DNA of 64,000 nt from an uncultured Desulfobacteraceae bacterium (lineage in GTDB: Bacteria > Desulfobacterota > Desulfobacteria > Desulfobacterales > UBA5852). The position numbers and the translations under genes were made by a program. The stretch spans positions 335,045-399,044 of the forward strand of contig CAJXSL010000003.1 in NCBI GenBank assembly GCA_913060875.1, given 5' to 3'. The notes under the pieces were generated by a model. That model saw nothing but the letters and a program-made list of their open reading frames with translations. It did not search any database and was not told where the DNA came from. Below, piece by piece: positions 4,421-52,465 of the stretch; within the stretch, counting starts at the first letter, position 1; every line of letters starts with the position of its first letter.

Positions 4421-4449
4421 GTGCAGAGGGGCGGTTGGCCCCTCTGCAC
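4421..4449 (+). terminator. 12-bp perfect hairpin after the exported-protein gene
   Basis: GTGCAGAGGGGC (4421-4432) pairs perfectly with 4438-4449 around a 5-base loop GGTTG. It lies 50 bases after the stop at 4370 and before the convergent regulator gene ending at 4604. It lacks a T-run on the plus strand, so it may end transcription only weakly or serve as an mRNA 3' end. Confidence 0.5.
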
Positions 4450-13105: not shown

Positions 13106-13127
13106 CGCTTTCCATTGGTTCGTTAAC

Positions 13128-13219
13128 CTCATGTTCCCCTTGCGGGCTGGATTTAGCACCTTGTGGATCAGGTTGCCGGGCGGTCGTCAGGCCAGTTCCC
13201 TCGCGCCTCTCAGCATGAA
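13128..13219 (-). ncRNA. SAM-I (S-box) riboswitch aptamer
   Basis: The minus strand reads, in order, GAGAGGCGCGAGGGA, CTGGCC, TGACGA, CCCGGCAACC, then GGTGCTAAATCC and GCCCGCAAGGGG. These are the conserved core blocks of the SAM-I class (k-turn, CCGGCAACC and GGTGCTAATTCC-like strand). The closing P1 helix can form between TTCATG near 13220 and CATGAG near 13128. It sits downstream of a promoter and upstream of a terminator and metY, so high SAM should stop metYXW transcription. Boundaries are approximate. Confidence 0.93.
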
Positions 13220-13231
13220 TATGTTCCGCTT

Positions 13232-38581: not shown

Positions 38582-38621
38582 GAAAAAAAACGGGCGCCAT
38601 TCCAAACTGGAATGGCGCCCG
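38582..38621 (-). terminator. Intrinsic terminator of the dsr operon
   Basis: CGGGCGCCATTCCA (38591-38604) pairs perfectly over 14 bases with 38608-38621 around a 3-base loop. Read on the minus strand it is followed by eight T residues, a textbook terminator 27 bases after dsrP. A second hairpin (CCCCCAT/ATGGGGG, 38555-38576) beside it probably serves fdhD on the plus strand. Confidence 0.9.
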
Positions 38622-38647: not shown

Positions 38648-39805
38648 CTAGGCCCGGACTTCTTCCTTTACACCGATGGTTACTTTGTAAAGGATGGTCA
38701 GGACAAGGGCACCGATGGCGTAGACACCGATGGTGATCATGACCTCCGGAAAAGTCGGCATGTATTCATTGACCTCGTGCAATGGATTGGGCACGAAGCC
38801 AGCCGAGATCAGGCCAAGGCCTTTGTCGATCCAGGCGCCAATGAACAGCATGACGCAGGCCACCGCCAAAACACTTTCGTTATGGCGGGTGATGGGTGGA
38901 ATCAGCAGAATGAGGGCCAGCACCATCAGAGCCATGGAGGTCCACATCCAGGGCACCAGAACCCCATGGCCATGCATACCGACAAACAGATATTTGATGT
39001 GGTCCATATGGCCGGGGATGTTGCTGTAAAACGCGACAAAGATCTCACAGCCGAAGAAAAACAAATTGGCGATGAGGGCATAGGTAATGATTTTAGCCAG
39101 CGTCTGGATCTGTTCCCGGCCGGGGTCGAAATTCGACACTTTACGGATAATGAGGCTCAACAGAACCAGCAGGGCCGGTCCGGCCGCAAAAGCCGAGGCC
39201 AGAAAACGCGGGGCCAGGATGGCTGTCAGCCAGAAATGGCGTCCGGGCAGGCCGCAGTAAAGAAACGCTGTCACCGTGTGGATGCTGATGGCGAACGGAA
39301 TGGAAAGGTAAATCAAGGGCGTCACCCATTTGGGATAGTGGGTGCCGTTGCGTTCGGCCTGCAGCACATTCCAGCCGATGACCAGATTCAGAAACAGGTA
39401 GCCGTTGAGGACGATCATGTCATAGAACAGCATGGAATGGGGCGAGAAATGGATGATCACGTTAAAAAGCCGCATCGGCTGCCCCAAGTCGACCACAACG
39501 CTCAGCATGCAGACGATCAGGGAGGCGATGGCCAGGAATTCACCCAGGATGGTGATGCGGCCAAACGCCTTGTAGTCGTGCAGGTAATAGGGCATCACCA
39601 CCATCACACCTCCGGCAGCCACACCCACCATATAGGTCAGCTGGGCGATGTAGAAGCCCCAGGAAACATCCCGGCTTAAGCCGGTGATGCCGAGACCGAA
39701 TTTCAACTGCCACAGATAAAAGCCGAAACCCACTCCGATCAGACCCAGCAGGACGGCGATCCATCCGTAGTATTTTTTGTCGCCTTTTATCGCATATTCA
39801 AGCAT
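38648..39805 (-). CDS. dsrP: DsrP, membrane quinone-interacting subunit (NrfD/PsrC family)
   Basis: A 385-aa integral membrane protein with about ten helices, NrfD-like. YYGWIAVLLGLIGVGFG, SWGFYIAQLTYMVGVAAGG, DLGQPMRLFN and SIPFAISIHTVTAFLY are typical of DsrP/HmcC. ATG 39805 is used, with GAGGTG just before; a GTG two codons upstream is too close to the ribosome site. It exchanges electrons between menaquinone and DsrO/DsrJ in the DsrMKJOP complex. Last gene of the operon, ending before the intrinsic terminator. Confidence 0.95.
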   Translation of the reverse strand: MLEYAIKGDKKYYGWIAVLLGLIGVGFGFYLWQLKFGLGITGLSRDVSWGFYIAQLTYMVGVAAGGVMVVMPYYLHDYKAFGRITILGEFLAIASLIVCMLSVVVDLGQPMRLFNVIIHFSPHSMLFYDMIVLNGYLFLNLVIGWNVLQAERNGTHYPKWVTPLIYLSIPFAISIHTVTAFLYCGLPGRHFWLTAILAPRFLASAFAAGPALLVLLSLIIRKVSNFDPGREQIQTLAKIITYALIANLFFFGCEIFVAFYSNIPGHMDHIKYLFVGMHGHGVLVPWMWTSMALMVLALILLIPPITRHNESVLAVACVMLFIGAWIDKGLGLISAGFVPNPLHEVNEYMPTFPEVMITIGVYAIGALVLTILYKVTIGVKEEVRA

Positions 39806-39812
39806 AGCCACC

Positions 39813-40616
39813 TCATATGATGTAGTAGACCGCAGGACCGGTCCCGAGGGAGGCCTTGCGGCGAATGGTGTGATGTTCTCTCAGGACTTCCCGGATTTCA
39901 GAATGGGGGTCTTCCAGGTCACCGAAGATGATGGCGCCTTCAGAGGCCTCCACACAGGCCGGGGGCTTACCGACGGCCAGCCGTTCCGCACAGAAGTTGC
40001 ATTTTTCAACGACGCCCTTGGTGCGGGTGGGAAACGCCAGGTTGGTCTCCTTGATGAAGGGCCGGGGATCGCGGAGATTGAAACTGCGTGATCCGTACGG
40101 ACAGGCCGCCATGCAGAAGCGGCACCCGATGCAGCGGTGAAAGTCCATGATGACGATGCCGTCGGGCCGTTTGAAGGTCGCCTCCGTGGGGCAGGCCTGT
40201 ACACAGGGCGGCTCTTCACAGTGGTTGCAAAGCACCAGGAAGGGGCGCTCTTCAACTTCTTCACTGATATATTTAGAGGGCTGATCGGTGAAGGCATTGT
40301 GGAAGTGGGTTTCCCAGATCCACTTGATCTCGTGCCGAACAGCCGTTTTTTCACCGACCTTTTCGGCGGAGATATCGGGGACATTGTGGGTTTTGTGGCA
40401 GGCCTCGACGATGCGCTCGATCTTTTCGTGGTCCAGCTTGGTGGTATCGATGACCAGGCCCCACTGTTTCGCGGTAAGGGCGTCTGCACCCTTGCGAACA
40501 TGCGGTTGCGCACCATGGCCGCCGGAAGCGGCAACGGCGCTGATCGCCGGAGCTGCACTTAGGCCCACGGCAGCGGTACCGGCAACTTTTAGAAATTGTC
40601 TTCTGCTGTCTTCCAT
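39813..40616 (-). CDS. dsrO: DsrO, periplasmic Tat-exported ferredoxin-like subunit
   Basis: A 267-aa protein. The N-terminus [13 protein letters not shown] is a twin-arginine signal. Iron-sulfur binding follows in four Cys clusters, including [28 protein letters not shown] and [16 protein letters not shown], matching DsrO/HmcB-type proteins with several [4Fe-4S] centres. ATG 40616 overlaps the dsrJ stop (TGATG) and has AAGGAG upstream. Passes electrons between DsrJ and DsrP on the periplasmic side. Confidence 0.95.
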
Positions 40617-41008
40617 CACTTGGTCTCCTTCGGATTATCGATATGGCAATCCCAGCAGTAAGGTTCGATAGATGCATAGTCGTGGCAGCGGTCACAGAAT
40701 TCGGCCTTGTTGGAATGGCAGTCCAGGCAGGTGTTGGACAGACTCATGTTGAATTCCTTGCCTTCGGCATTGACATAGATCCGTTCCGCCTTGCGCACGA
40801 CCGTATCCCGCCATTCGTCCAGCAGCTGCATGTGGTTGGCTGTCATGAATTGCGTATCGCGCACACATTTTTCCGCTGCCTTGGCCTTGGGTGTCAGCAC
40901 CAGTTCGGGCGCCGGACCCTTCTCCAGGAACATATTCAACCAGAAGGGAAACGATGCCACGACGAAAAAGATCACTATTCCCGCGATAATTTTGCCTTTA
41001 TCATTCAT
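40616..41008 (-). CDS. dsrJ: DsrJ, triheme cytochrome c
   Basis: A 130-aa protein with an uncleaved N-terminal membrane anchor ([21 protein letters not shown]) and three CxxCH heme sites: CLDCHS, CDRCHD and CWDCHI, all in the last 45 residues. A Cys in [15 protein letters not shown] is the likely axial ligand of the unusual His/Cys heme known in DsrJ. ATG 41008 overlaps the dsrK stop by 8 bases. Confidence 0.95.
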
Positions 41009-42635
41009 CAGCCTCTTCCTCCATTCCCGGCAGGGGCTCCCCGCGCAGATCGGTCTCTCGCTTCTTTTCACCCGGTAGGATCAGAGCGTTGCCCACCAGT
41101 TCGTGAACACCGGTGACGTCCGCCCCGGTTTCCCAGTAGTTCATCAGGTCCGGCAGGGCCGCACGGTCGATGGCGCAGACACAGGCCAGCATGTTGACGT
41201 CGAATTTATCGGCGACGTGTTTAACGGCATTGGCCCGCGGAAGGCCGCCGCACATGCGTAGCTCCATGTCTTCACCGGCGTTGAGACCGGATCCGCTGCC
41301 GCAACAGAAGGTGTTTTCGCGGATGGTATTGGCGGGCATTTCATAAAAATGGTTGGCCACGTTGTTGATAATATAGCGCGGTTCTTCCAGCAGCCCCATG
41401 CCCCGTGCCGGGTTGCAGGAGTCGTGGAAGGTGATTCTCTGATTGTCGTTGCGGCTGGGGTCCAGTTCCAGTTTGCCGTGTTTGATCAAATCGGCCGTAA
41501 ACTCGGTGATGTGGACCATTTTGGTGGAGGCCGCATTCTCGAATTTTGTTCCGGTGATCGGGTTGACCGGCACTTCCAGGTGATCGGCCGGCCCATTCAT
41601 GGTATCCATGTACTGATGGATCACGCGCCACATGTGGCCGCATTCACCCCCCAGGATCCATTTGACCCCCAGGCGTTTGGCTTCCGCGTACATCTTGGCG
41701 TTCAAGCGCTTCATGGTCTCGTGGGACGTGAAGAAACCAAAGTTACCGCCTTCCGAGGCGTAGGTGCTCCAGGTGACATCCAGCCCGTATTTGTCTTTGA
41801 GGTACTTGAACAGGATCATGTACCCCATGCAGGTGTAGGTGCCCGGGTCGGCAAAGACATCCCCCGAAGGGGTGATAAATAGGATGTCCGCCCCTTTTTT
41901 ATTATAGGTGGGCTCGCAATTGACACCGGTGATATCCTCGATGTCCTCGACGAAGAAATCGAGCATGTCTTTAAAGGCGTGGGGTTGGATACCCAAGTGG
42001 TTGCCGGTCATGTAGCAGTTCGACACCGGGGTGGCGATCCAGTCGATGTTGAGGCCGAGCAGGTTGAGCAGTTCACGGCCCATGATGGTGATTTCGGCCG
42101 TGTCGATGCCGTAGGGGCAGAACACCGAACAGCGCCGGCATTCCGAGCACTGGAAGAAATAATACCACCACTCCTTGAGTACATCGAGGGTCATCGGGCG
42201 GGCGCCGGCCAGGCGGCCAAAGATTTTACCGGCCGTGGTGAAATCGTTGCGGTAGACCGAGCGCAGCAATTCCGCCCGGAGGACCGGCATGTTTTTGGGA
42301 TCACCGGTGCCGATAAAATAATGGCACTTGTCGGCGCAGGCGCCGCAGCGCACACAGATGTCCATGAACACTTTGAAGGAACGGAATTTTTCAAGACGTT
42401 CCTTGATGCCGTTGTGGATGATTTCCTGCCAGTTGTCGGGCAGCAGCCAGTCGTCCTCCATCGGATTCCATTTGCGCGCGTTGGGGGCACTCAGGGTTTC
42501 CATGCTTTTGGGGTTGGCCGAGTAACAGTACATCCCCGGGCGGATGTCCACCGGGATGTCCATCCAGTCTTTTCCTTTGGGCGGCCGATGATCTATGTGG
42601 GAAAATAGCTCATCGCTTTTGGGCAGATCGCTCAT
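41001..42635 (-). CDS. dsrK: DsrK, HdrD-like catalytic iron-sulfur subunit
   Basis: A 544-aa cytoplasmic protein. Two [4Fe-4S] motifs (CVRCGACADKCHYF, CSECRRCSVFCPYG) are followed by two CCG-type domains (HDSCNPARGMG and NTFCCGSGSGLN) that build the special [4Fe-4S] centre of heterodisulfide-reductase-like enzymes. It is thought to reduce the DsrC trisulfide made by dissimilatory sulfite reductase. AGGAG precedes ATG 42635; it lies 6 bases after dsrM. Confidence 0.96.
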   Translation of the reverse strand: MSDLPKSDELFSHIDHRPPKGKDWMDIPVDIRPGMYCYSANPKSMETLSAPNARKWNPMEDDWLLPDNWQEIIHNGIKERLEKFRSFKVFMDICVRCGACADKCHYFIGTGDPKNMPVLRAELLRSVYRNDFTTAGKIFGRLAGARPMTLDVLKEWWYYFFQCSECRRCSVFCPYGIDTAEITIMGRELLNLLGLNIDWIATPVSNCYMTGNHLGIQPHAFKDMLDFFVEDIEDITGVNCEPTYNKKGADILFITPSGDVFADPGTYTCMGYMILFKYLKDKYGLDVTWSTYASEGGNFGFFTSHETMKRLNAKMYAEAKRLGVKWILGGECGHMWRVIHQYMDTMNGPADHLEVPVNPITGTKFENAASTKMVHITEFTADLIKHGKLELDPSRNDNQRITFHDSCNPARGMGLLEEPRYIINNVANHFYEMPANTIRENTFCCGSGSGLNAGEDMELRMCGGLPRANAVKHVADKFDVNMLACVCAIDRAALPDLMNYWETGADVTGVHELVGNALILPGEKKRETDLRGEPLPGMEEEADE

Positions 42636-42641
42636 TATGTC

Positions 42642-43652
42642 TTACTCCTTTTTATCCACAGGCAGTCCAGCCTCGATCATTTTTTCCCTGAAATCATCTT
42701 CATACTCTTCGTAGGTATGAACGTTTACCGGGTAATTCCACGGGTTCACATGGCGAACCGCGCGGGAGTTGTTGGCCATATTACGCGTCGGGCTCAGGAA
42801 AATGCCGCCCATGTGCATCAGCTTGCTCCAGGGGAAATAGGCCAGCAGTACGCTGACAAAGAATACGTGGATATAGAAAATGCTGCCGATTTCCTGCATC
42901 CGGGCCATGGTCGGCAGACTGAAGGACACCAGGCCGTAGGTCAGCTCCTTGGCCGCGACCACGTCGATTTTCGTGAAATAGCGCATCAGGATACCGGTAA
43001 GCGCGATGCCGAAAATCAAGAACAGGGGGAAGAAATCCGAGGCCAGGGAGATCATCCGGATATTGGGTAGGTAGACCCGCCTAAAGAACAAAAACAAAAC
43101 CGTGCCCAGCAATACGAAGCTCGACATGGAAATGATCGGGTGACCGATTTGGATGAAGGTATCGATTTTTTCCAGGATTTCAAAGGGCAGGGGCAGGGGC
43201 TCCAGAAAAAAGCGGGCATGGCGCAGAATGACCACCAGGAAGGTGTAATGAAAGGCCAGGGCAAATAGCCACAGCCAGAGCTCCAGGTCGTAGCTGATGC
43301 GCCCATCCGGGTTGACCCGCATGCGCGTATTCCGAAATAAGGACCGGAAGGTCACCACTTCGAAAAACATCCGGGCCACCACGGCCCCTGTGGTATACGG
43401 GCTGTCAATCTTGTTGGGTTTAATCCATGGCAGGGATTTGGCCTGGCCGGCCGTGGTGGGGATCCGAAACGGCACGGTCGAGCGCGCCCAGTCCATCATG
43501 CGGATGAAAAAGCCGACGAAAAAAACTACCACCGCGACGTAGGGCAGGATTACGCCGAAGAGCACTTGCAACCCGAGGAGGTCACATCCCACCCAGGCGA
43601 TCAGCGCCAGAGCCGCAACGGCTAGAAAGGAATAGAAATACTTAACATTCAT
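42642..43652 (-). CDS. dsrM: DsrM, membrane cytochrome b subunit (NarI-like)
   Basis: A 336-aa membrane protein with about six helices. His residues for heme b are in LAFHYTFLVVILRHARFF and IGHPIISM, and the C-terminal LMHMGGIFLSPTRNMANNSR is characteristic of DsrM. It takes electrons from menaquinol and passes them to DsrK. It follows the RsbRD-N gene after 86 bases and starts the dsrMKJOP block. Confidence 0.96.
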   Translation of the reverse strand: MNVKYFYSFLAVAALALIAWVGCDLLGLQVLFGVILPYVAVVVFFVGFFIRMMDWARSTVPFRIPTTAGQAKSLPWIKPNKIDSPYTTGAVVARMFFEVVTFRSLFRNTRMRVNPDGRISYDLELWLWLFALAFHYTFLVVILRHARFFLEPLPLPFEILEKIDTFIQIGHPIISMSSFVLLGTVLFLFFRRVYLPNIRMISLASDFFPLFLIFGIALTGILMRYFTKIDVVAAKELTYGLVSFSLPTMARMQEIGSIFYIHVFFVSVLLAYFPWSKLMHMGGIFLSPTRNMANNSRAVRHVNPWNYPVNVHTYEEYEDDFREKMIEAGLPVDKKE

Positions 43653-43738: not shown

Positions 43739-44278
43739 TTAAGATGCCCCGGAATCCGGTTTGCTATCCGGATTTTCTCGTACCAGTCCGGCACGTGCAA
43801 AAGCGCGATAAAATTTGCTTTGCTCCTCGGTTGCCTTCATGCTGTAGATTTTCTCACGGCAACGCACAAATATATCGAAAGCGATCAATAGCAGTCGGTC
43901 GATGCGTTCTTCAAATGCCAGCAACTGCGCATACATATCAGCATCTTGCAGGTCGCTTTTCAGCGTGTTGCGGATGATCTTTTTAAGATCGAGAATGAAG
44001 GCGGTGGCTTGAGAGGGGGTAAACATGGTCTGGACGGCGCGGATCCGGATGAGTGGATCCAGTTCGCGGGCAAGGTGTTCCGGCGTGGCATCTTCGAGGA
44101 GGCCGTCCAGAACCGCCTCGAGCGTGCGGTGTGATGTTCCGCCCACCGGATTGCTGAACGTATCCTTGACGGATTTAAGGAAACGGGTCGTATCGGGGGG
44201 ATAGGTGCCGGCCAGGATGGCAAACCAATCATTGGCGATTTGCCGTTTGGATTTTGCTATTCGACGTTCCAGTCTCAT
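43739..44278 (-). CDS. RsbRD N-terminal domain protein at the head of the dsr operon
   Basis: A 179-aa helical protein with the RsbRD-N pattern (RIAKSKRQIANDWFAILAGTYP, DGLLEDATPEHLARELDPLIRIRAVQ, PSQATAFILDLKKIIRN). In the stressosome family such domains sense signals, but here no STAS domain follows. A gene of this kind stands before dsrM in several sulfate reducers. ATG 44278 has no ribosome site, because its upstream bases form the arm of a perfect hairpin (44281-44315). Function unknown. Confidence 0.82.
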   Translation of the reverse strand: MRLERRIAKSKRQIANDWFAILAGTYPPDTTRFLKSVKDTFSNPVGGTSHRTLEAVLDGLLEDATPEHLARELDPLIRIRAVQTMFTPSQATAFILDLKKIIRNTLKSDLQDADMYAQLLAFEERIDRLLLIAFDIFVRCREKIYSMKATEEQSKFYRAFARAGLVRENPDSKPDSGAS

Positions 44279-44280
44279 CT

Positions 44281-44315
44281 GAGGGGATGGCTCGGTTTCA
44301 AGGGGCCATCCCCTC
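44281..44315 (-). promoter_or_regulatory. Perfect 11-bp leader hairpin at the start codon of the dsr operon
   Basis: GAGGGGATGGC (44281-44291) and its exact reverse complement (44305-44315) form an 11-bp stem with a 13-base loop. On the minus-strand RNA the 3' arm ends only 2 bases before the ATG at 44278, filling the usual ribosome-binding position. It could control translation of the operon. Confidence 0.6.
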
Positions 44316-44398
44316 GAAAACGGCTTGGTTACTCCTTTTGCACCGTTGGTTGGTCAAAGCAGACTCCGGCAGGAGAATGCCCGATTTTGAATCAAAAT

Positions 44399-44427
44399 TC
44401 TATAGTCAAGTTGGAAATTTCTGTCAA
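44399..44427 (-). promoter_or_regulatory. Promoter of the RsbRD-N/dsrMKJOP operon
   Basis: On the minus strand TTGACA (44427-44422) and TATAGA (44404-44399) are 17 bases apart, an almost ideal sigma-70 promoter. Transcription would begin near 44392, leaving a leader of about 115 bases. Confidence 0.75.
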
Positions 44428-48040: not shown

Positions 48041-49396
48041 TCAGGATTTTTTAATCCCCAGCTCTTTGGTTTTACTCAAGAGGGTGTTGCGATGGATTCC
48101 CAGCCGGCGGGCGGCTTCGGTTTTATTGCCATTGGCGGCTTCCAGAGCGCTTTCAATATACTGCTTTTCAAAGGCCTGGGTGGCTTCCCGCAGCGGGCGC
48201 TGGTGTTTTGGCGAAGCGATGGCCGCCAGTGGCGGCAGGTTGCCCAATCGAATGGTGCGTTCCGGATTGATGGTGCAAATGCGCTCGACCAGATTCTCCA
48301 ACTCCCGGACGTTGCCCGGCCAGTCATAGGCGGCCAGATGCTCAATGGCGGCCGGCGTCAACTGCTTGGTGGGGGTTCCATTACGTTTGGCATAGATTTG
48401 CAGAAAGTGTTTCAGAAGAAAGGGAATGTCATCCCTGCGTTCCCGCAGCGGGGGCAGCACAATCGGCAGGACATTGAGGCGATAGTAAAGGTCTTGCCGA
48501 AATCGATTTTGGGCGACAAGCGCCAGCAGATCCTGGTTCGATGATGCGATAATTCGGATATCCGCTCTAATAAGGCGATGCGTCCCAAGACGTTCAAACT
48601 CTTTTTGCTGAATGACCCGCAGGAGTTTGGCCTGCATTTTAATCGAGAGGGAGTCGATATCATCGAGAAAGATCGTGCCCGTGTTGGCGATTTCGAGTTT
48701 ACCGGGGCAATCTCTGGATGCCCCGGTAAACGCGCCCCGACGATGGCCGAAAAGTTCACTTTCCATAAGGGTAACCGGGATGGCGGCACAATTGATGACG
48801 ACAAATGGATTTTGGGCGCGGCCGCTTTGGTTGTGGATCGCGCGGGCGACGAGTTCCTTGCCGGTACCGCTTTCGCCCTGGATAAGCACGGTTCCTTCGC
48901 TGGGGGCTATGGTGGCAATCATCCGGAAGACTTTTTTTATCTCGGGATTCTGGCCCACCATGGTTTCAAACGGCCGACAATGGCCGATTTCGTGCTTCAG
49001 GAGAAAAACTTCTTTCTGCAGGGTTTTCTTCTTGACAGCCCGCGCTACGATGGCTTTGACATTGTCGATATCGAAGGGTTTGACCAAGTAATCTTGGGCG
49101 CCGTTTTTCATGGCCTCTATGCCGGATTGGAGATCTTGGAGCGCCGTAACCATTATGATTTCGACGCCTGCGTCAATCGCTTTAAAATCTGGAATCAGCC
49201 GACGACCGTCGGTGTCCGGCAGCATAATATCGAGGAGGATGATATCGACCGACCGGGATTCGAAAAATGCCAGTGCTTCGGCACCGTTGCGGGCCATGTG
49301 GAGAACGTAATGATCTTCTAAGGCCATCCGAAGTGATTCACGGACATATTTCTCATCGTCGACAATCAAAATTGAAGAACTGTGCCCTCTGGTCAT
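48041..49396 (-). CDS. Sigma-54-dependent response regulator (NtrC family)
   Basis: A 451-aa activator. Receiver: ILIVDDE, phospho-Asp in IILLDIMLP, Lys in LVKPF. AAA+ domain: Walker A GESGTGKE, sigma-54 loop GAFTGA, GTIFLDD, arginine finger RQDLYYR. The C-terminal Fis-type HTH (GNKTEAARRLGIHRNTLLSK) binds DNA. ATG 49396 gives MTRGHSSSILIVDDE; the frame extends upstream without similarity. Its most likely partner is the divergent histidine kinase at 49811. Sigma-54 targets were not identified. Confidence 0.92.
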   Translation of the reverse strand: MTRGHSSSILIVDDEKYVRESLRMALEDHYVLHMARNGAEALAFFESRSVDIILLDIMLPDTDGRRLIPDFKAIDAGVEIIMVTALQDLQSGIEAMKNGAQDYLVKPFDIDNVKAIVARAVKKKTLQKEVFLLKHEIGHCRPFETMVGQNPEIKKVFRMIATIAPSEGTVLIQGESGTGKELVARAIHNQSGRAQNPFVVINCAAIPVTLMESELFGHRRGAFTGASRDCPGKLEIANTGTIFLDDIDSLSIKMQAKLLRVIQQKEFERLGTHRLIRADIRIIASSNQDLLALVAQNRFRQDLYYRLNVLPIVLPPLRERRDDIPFLLKHFLQIYAKRNGTPTKQLTPAAIEHLAAYDWPGNVRELENLVERICTINPERTIRLGNLPPLAAIASPKHQRPLREATQAFEKQYIESALEAANGNKTEAARRLGIHRNTLLSKTKELGIKKS

Positions 49397-51958: not shown

Positions 51959-52465
51959 TGGCCAAATCGCCATTTCCGCTTTCGTGCGTCTGCTGAAGAT
52001 GCTCTCGGTGATGGTTTGGCGCTGGCGGCCCAAAAGGATAACGGTTATCCGCTGTGCGGATAACCGTTAAGGAGGAAAACTTATAAAAAAGGTTAGGTTA
52101 GGTTGACATTAGGAATAAGCAATCATCATGCCAAATAAAGCAACCGATAAGATGAAAGTTAATATTGCCTTTAAATTCAAAAGTATAAAGTGCTTTAAGG
52201 GCTTGTTTGTTTTGTGGCATTGAAGGCTCTTACCATCTTGTGGGCCCTCCGAAATTCAAAATTATTAACCCATGACGACGTAAAAATATGTATCTATCTG
52301 TATATATTGGTAAAGTTAAGATATTTGGAAAGTTTAAAATTTTGAACCGTCCGGGCTATTTCGGTTGTGTATGTATTAACGATTTGAAAATATTGCCTAA
52401 TATGCTTTTTCAGAATCTGAATGGCCCGATCAATTGGCAGTCCGACGGCCGCTGAGGATGGTCCC
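51959..52465. other. AT-rich gap upstream of the MFS gene
   Basis: About 500 bases. Besides the palindrome at 52036-52069, the part from 52080 to 52400 is strongly AT-rich and gene-free. A 31-codon frame from ATG 52128 has no good ribosome site and is probably chance. Tandem AGGTTAGGTTAGGTT lies at 52090-52104. The MFS promoter must lie here but is not clear. Confidence 0.5.
52036..52069. repeat. Nested palindrome with two GGATAACSGTTA copies
   Basis: TAACGGTTATCCGC (52039-52052) pairs perfectly with 52056-52069 around TGT, a 14-bp stem. The left part is itself a palindrome (GGATAACGGTTATCC, 52036-52050), and GGATAAC-S-GTTA recurs at 52058, exactly 22 bases later. It may be a terminator of the upstream gene or a double operator. 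An AAGGAGG follows at 52069 without a usable start codon nearby. Confidence 0.6.

Follow-up and report, generated by a model that had tools for sequence, protein, structure and literature searches.

A candidate two-state RNA leader ahead of the RsbRD_N gene of a dsrMKJOP operon

Does the RNA stem that closes against the first start codon of a dsr operon control translation and, if so, of which gene? The question was raised by a locus of an uncultured Desulfobacteraceae bacterium (assembly GCA_913060875.1, contig CAJXSL010000003.1), studied within a window of 64 kb, the whole stretch of DNA that was analysed (positions 335,045 to 399,044 of the contig). Coordinates are those of the window, and the promoter, leader and genes described all lie on the minus strand.

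Operon and promoter

The initial annotation had placed the stem at the head of the sulfite-reduction operon. The operon is a dsr operon, although it encodes the electron-transfer complex dsrMKJOP and not dsrAB: dsrM (42642–43652; NF038037), dsrK (41001–42635; NF045796), dsrJ (40616–41071; NF038038; the listed ORF starts with GTG and the true start may be further in), dsrO (39813–40619; NF045797) and dsrP (38648–39811; NF045798), followed by an intrinsic terminator (38583–38621) with a perfect 14-bp stem and then eight T. The gene directly behind the stem encodes no Dsr subunit. Its product is a 179 aa RsbRD_N-domain protein (43739–44278; PF14361, 54.9 bits; start conserved), and dsrM starts 86 nt past its end with a Shine–Dalgarno (SD) sequence of its own (−9.2 kcal/mol). 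Since the stem precedes the RsbRD_N gene and dsrM has its own SD, direct translational control of the Dsr subunits does not follow.

RsbRD_N is a stressosome-type N-terminal domain, and a gene of this type heads dsrMKJOP. Matches to the protein (P0001) were found in 346 of 389 genomes of the order, and the gene's family was present in 127 of 198 genomes of the phylum. dsrM lay downstream on the same strand in 52 of the 53 distinct loci with enough sequence (this locus included), 39 further loci being too short to judge. The RsbRD_N gene is maintained by selection, its identity with that of the nearest relative being 0.92 at second codon positions and 0.64 at third positions. Its product may regulate the Dsr membrane complex or assist in its assembly.

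The promoter reported at 44399–44427 is real. Its −35 box (TTGACA, 44427–44422) and −10 box (TATAGA, 44404–44399), separated by 17 nt, were read in the sequence and confirmed by comparison among loci of the order; it heads the RsbRD_N–dsrMKJOP unit and is a member of a promoter family conserved throughout the order. A plain sigma-70 scan left it unlisted because that scan accepts only −10 boxes that end in T. The comparison used 94 loci of the order (30 + 21 + 3 of 6, and 40 hand-picked from the better-scoring matches listed), a non-random sample that leans to closer relatives. L001 (the same place as the present locus) and L053–L055 (the same contigs as L003–L005, with L004 = L054 and L005 = L055) had been left out beforehand, and two duplicates (L056 = L032 and L067 = L057) reduced the promoter counts to 92 distinct loci. 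In all 92, TTGACA lay no more than 320 nt before the RsbRD_N gene, with the consensus TTTaTtCTTGACAtgAatttgcAAnTTGntTATAgg and a spacer of 17 nt in 83, 18 nt in eight and 16 nt in one. The −10 box never ended in T (its sixth base was G in 43, A in 36 and C in 13), which is unusual for sigma-70 and suggests an activator or another sigma factor.

Elsewhere in the phylum, nine of 20 loci had CTTGACA at the best-scoring place. CTTGACA-N16–18-TATAG occurred four times in the present genome, the other three copies having neighbours without an evident link to sulfate reduction (by eye). Among the matches listed for 76 genomes of the order, a tighter pattern with one mismatch allowed gave 51 places, compared with seven for a control pattern, and most of the 51 coincided with the dsrMKJOP operon when set against the known places of homologues. 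Nine places were inspected by eye, of which two were the operon, six lay before unrelated genes and one (L142) had too short a sequence. These counts across the order indicate a promoter that is largely operon-specific. A heat-shock sigma-32 promoter in the leader was considered and rejected: the published form is CTTGAAA-N11/16-CCCCAT (PMC545781), the CTTGAAA of the leader is spaced at about 9, and in relatives the sequence reads CTTGGAA or CTTGGAT.

Two mutually exclusive folds in the leader

Counted from the −10 box, the RNA is expected to start at about 44392, giving a 5′ leader of about 114 nt (44279–44392), in agreement with the 115 bases first estimated. The perfect 11-bp stem was likewise found as described. 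In stem A the 5′ arm (44305–44315, GAGGGGATGGC) pairs with the 3′ arm (44281–44291, GCCATCCCCTC) across a 13-nt loop, and the dinucleotide AG separates it from the ATG at 44278. The local fold has a free energy of −23.1 kcal/mol (z −4.7), and the pair of arms occurs once in the genome. The window holds five perfect inverted repeats of at least 11 bp (loop 3–20), whereas eight dinucleotide shuffles gave 0–2 each (mean 0.5). Other perfect inverted repeats of 12–14 bp in the window lie at 4421–4449, 48697–48731 and 52039–52069, and the window also contains a SAM riboswitch (RF00162, 51.6 bits) at 13126–13221 on the minus strand.

Leaders were compared within the family using this leader, those of three congeners (L053, L054 and L055) and that of one further family member (L006), all of which share ancestry. 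As a perfect stem, A is largely not conserved among them, a finding that the initial annotation had named as telling against its reading. Of the 11 pairs, 11 are kept here, 10 in L053, 10 in L055 (with one bulge) and eight in L054 (with gaps). Stem A is absent from L006, which has another hairpin against its ATG; that hairpin (GGGGC-AGG/CCUGCCCC; genome G005) is flush with the start codon and holds the SD partly in its loop. A structured leader was not found as an order-wide feature, and a mean z of −0.09 over 89 leaders (duplicates and leaders outside 40–300 nt removed) leads to rejection of a general structured leader in the order. The leader of L038 (G278) is 233 nt long and has a long inverted repeat (z −5.8), as though a small element had been inserted there between promoter and gene. 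Judged by these comparisons, the deeply conserved, order-wide element is the promoter and not the stem.

A second hairpin, B, is conserved within the family. It spans 44293–44322, CG(U)UUUCGAGGGG-AUGG-CCCCUUGAAA(C)CG, with 12 pairs and one U–C mismatch. Its 5′ arm and loop overlap the 5′ arm of stem A, and the two folds share the GAGGGG strand and exclude one another. Hairpin B can form in all five family leaders. It is identical to that of the nearest relative at 31 of 31 positions, compared with 37 of 40 in the promoter, 37 of 53 in the 5′ leader, 109 of 242 far upstream and 0.64 at third codon positions of the gene. Against a more distant congener the values were 26 of 31 for B and 21 of 53 for the 5′ leader, and between L054 and L055 the contrast was weaker (24 of 31 and 35 of 53, respectively, with third codon positions at 0.60). 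By alignment, then, the conserved part of the leader is hairpin B.

A covariance model of hairpin B (R1), built from this leader and the three congeners, gave one strong match in each of these four genomes (G000–G003) and recovered the leader hairpin of L006 in the same place with 20.9 bits. No strong R1 match occurred in G004, a congener in which the RsbRD_N gene was not found. Weaker R1 matches (L108–L112) were considered as copies of a dispersed repeat; they lacked mutual homology and were taken as chance. In this leader and the three congeners 95.8 % of cells pair, and no pair has changed on both sides, so the case for B rests on conservation and not on covariation. The outer stem of B in L006 appears by eye to have C–G for G–C. 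At the gathering threshold there was no Rfam match in the leader, and one weak match below it belonged to an unrelated family. CsrA-type GGA loops were also considered and rejected, since the B loop of L055 has no GGA (by eye). Hairpin B is probably functional.

In the core of 58–68 nt, the energies of A and B were −25.3 and −22.4 kcal/mol in this leader, −26.2 and −22.7 in L053, −24.1 and −22.5 in L055, and −22.2 and −21.6 in L054, A thus lying below B by 0.6–3.5 kcal/mol in all four. The corresponding ensembles of the whole leader were −49.3 and −45.8 kcal/mol here, −46.6 and −45.0 in L053, −41.8 and −42.4 in L055, and −42.2 and −45.0 in L054, where A lies 2.8 kcal/mol above B; B in L006 reached −55.7 kcal/mol. 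The favoured fold is predicted to be A in this leader (P 0.997 on thermodynamics alone) and in L053, and B in L055 and L006, with B at 0.44 in L054. A competing fold as good as the actual one was reached by only eight of 1000 shuffles of the spacer between B and the ATG in this leader and nine in L053, the spacers of these two being nearly identical, and by 42 in L055, 232 in L054 and 127 in L006; A is unsupported in the last two.

For the growing transcript, B is predicted to form first and A to take over once its 3′ arm is complete. The barrier between them (findpath) is about 20 kcal/mol, so free switching would be slow. As A and B are close in energy in the four congeneric leaders, a two-state leader, open as B and closed as A, is tentatively preferred as the best single account. 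The model is moderately supported.

Initiation at the first gene and competing explanations

Under the two-state model, hairpin B would form first during transcription and represent the open state, in which a ribosome could dock on the presumably single-stranded AAGGAG region, accommodate B (−44 to −15) and reach the ATG, much as at a split ribosome-binding site. After synthesis of the 3′ arm (44291–44281), B could give up its 5′ arm and loop to a new pairing as stem A, which would end 2 nt short of the ATG and close the ribosome site. The direct effect would be confined to the RsbRD_N gene, dsrM–P beginning from their own sites. We infer the switching of the RNA, its trigger and its effect on translation.

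That translation starts elsewhere, as had been suggested, is unlikely. ATG 44278 is the only ATG, GTG or TTG from the last in-frame stop upstream to the start of the gene, and in the N-terminal alignment it matches the start of the homologues. The reported lack of an SD outside the stem holds, in that the best anti-SD pairing in the 19 nt before the start is only −2.2 kcal/mol. This pairing is given by CGAG (44291–44294), a degraded SD, at a place where relatives have GGAG; it is the same in L053, compared with −5.8 kcal/mol in L054 and L055, and GGAG stands 10–11 nt before the ATG in these two and in many loci of the order. An SD kept by relatives is, on this alignment, lost in the present species and its sister species. 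Of 51 long ORFs in the window, eight lack a good SD whichever candidate start is taken, so absence of an SD is uncommon and not unique; a few other loci of the order have one as poor. In 29 of 92 rows the 30 nt that precede the start contained a mini-repeat GGR-N4-YYC around the SD, compared with a mean of 3.2 and at most 9 in shuffles. It perhaps reflects inheritance and, being shared within families, was given no weight.

Closure of the start region was no greater than chance. Opening −18 to +13 costs 12.6 kcal/mol in this leader compared with a shuffled mean of 12.4, 43 of 100 shuffles cost at least as much, and the leader ranked 20 of 92 rows (these rows, like those of the mini-repeat count, keep the duplicate pairs in full and omit L031 and L093, whose start codon was not found near the aligned position, and thus represent 90 distinct loci). 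The cost is presumably no higher than in shuffles because hairpin B re-forms when A opens. Of the proposed translational control there remains a candidate for the RsbRD_N gene through the two-state leader, and the opening cost, which matches that of shuffles, speaks against it.

A reading that comes close behind, and is itself plausible though somewhat less probable than the two-state model, is that B alone is functional, as a standby or stability hairpin by the ribosome site, with stem A as a by-product. In that case the 3′ arm of A would be an inherited C-rich SD spacer that fits the G-rich arm of B by chance, and it does correspond to the order-wide spacer between SD and ATG (GGAGCCATCCCGAAT-ATG in L016). 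B is also more conserved than A, a single base change in the nearest relative costs A one pair and leaves B unaltered, and A is the fold that finds no support in L054 and L006. Against this, A-type pairing beats shuffled spacers in this leader, L053 and L055, and pair 7 of stem A is A–U in this leader and L053 and C–G in L055 and L054, a compensatory change that is one event and hinges on the placement of a one-base gap.

It is improbable that the inverted repeat of B works as DNA, as an operator of a dimeric regulator some 70–100 bp past the transcription start. Its CAAGGGG/CCCCTTG-type arms are near-palindromic in DNA; the imperfect pairs, however, include a few G–U and U–G, which can form in the sense RNA alone, the element lies deep within the leader, and a convincing second copy, which a wider regulon would predict, was not found in the genomes searched.

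Still less probable is a split ribosome-binding site in which AAGGAG is the actual SD and hairpin A or B just bridges the gap. The AAGGAG noted near 44335 does lie upstream of both hairpins, at 44337–44332. It is conserved in the genus (AAAGGAG in this leader, L053 and L055; AAAGGGAG in L054), a good proximal SD is missing from this leader and from L053, and the hairpin of E. coli thrS at −48 to −14 offers a precedent (PMC3936740). With the hairpin excised, however, AAGGAG and the ATG would still be 18 nt apart in the case of A and 23 nt apart in the case of B, and L054 and L055 keep an AAGGAG-like stretch despite an SD after the hairpin. A leader peptide behind AAGGAG was rejected, no ATG, GTG or TTG being seen by eye at a usable distance in this leader.

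A transcription attenuator acting by early termination, or a wrong gene model, is very improbable: the leader does contain a stable hairpin, but no T run follows A or B, no intrinsic terminator was found on the minus strand between 43700 and 45200, and the gene model has no in-frame start upstream and an N-terminus that aligns with homologues.

Returning to the two-state model, it is doubtful, though conceivable, that a hitherto undescribed leader of this sulfate-reducer genus, with an 11-bp closed fold set against a conserved open hairpin, sets the amount of RsbRD_N protein. The leader hairpins may tune the RsbRD_N gene only and are a modest candidate regulatory element.

Relation to known regulatory systems

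In dissimilatory sulfate reduction the membrane complex is encoded by dsrMKJOP, on whose regulation little has been printed according to the records retrieved in a literature search. Judged by the titles and abstract openings of the matches listed, literature on the dsrMKJOP promoter and RsbRD reports no such leader, and a search for papers on RsbRD in sulfate reducers found none. In Desulfovibrio, the HcpR regulon has the operator TTGTGA-N6-TCACAA at sat and apsAB, so that regulatory sites have been proposed at sulfate-reduction operons there as well; unlike the present case, that account, in its available part, does not name dsrMKJOP or mention a leader RNA of that operon (PMC545781). At the present locus a near-invariant, order-wide promoter precedes dsrMKJOP and, first in the operon, an RsbRD_N gene whose translation start is perhaps RNA-controlled in a single genus. 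Should the switch prove real, it offers a handle on the RsbRD_N protein; otherwise the promoter stays a target for study.

The present leader can be set beside several classes of regulatory RNA. In two-state leaders of the riboswitch or attenuator type, two folds share one strand and one of them closes the start site. The same arrangement is predicted here, A and B sharing one strand and A closing the start site; unlike such leaders, the present one has no recognised aptamer, Rfam family or terminator, and the arrangement was seen in a single genus. In translational-control hairpins that sequester the SD, the stem adjoins the start codon, as stem A does; here, in contrast, it is the spacer that lies in the stem, the SD is degraded and the opening cost is that of shuffled sequence.

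The thrS gene is regulated by its own synthetase. In E. coli its hairpin at −48 to −14 forms part of a split ribosome-binding site (PMC3936740). Unlike thrS, the present leader has a second, exclusive fold and no recognised ligand, and the SD between hairpin and ATG is degraded to CGAG here and in L053, although it is present in L054 and L055. What the two leaders would have in common is the succession of a single-stranded region, a hairpin (here B, −44 to −15) and a short stretch that carries the start codon.
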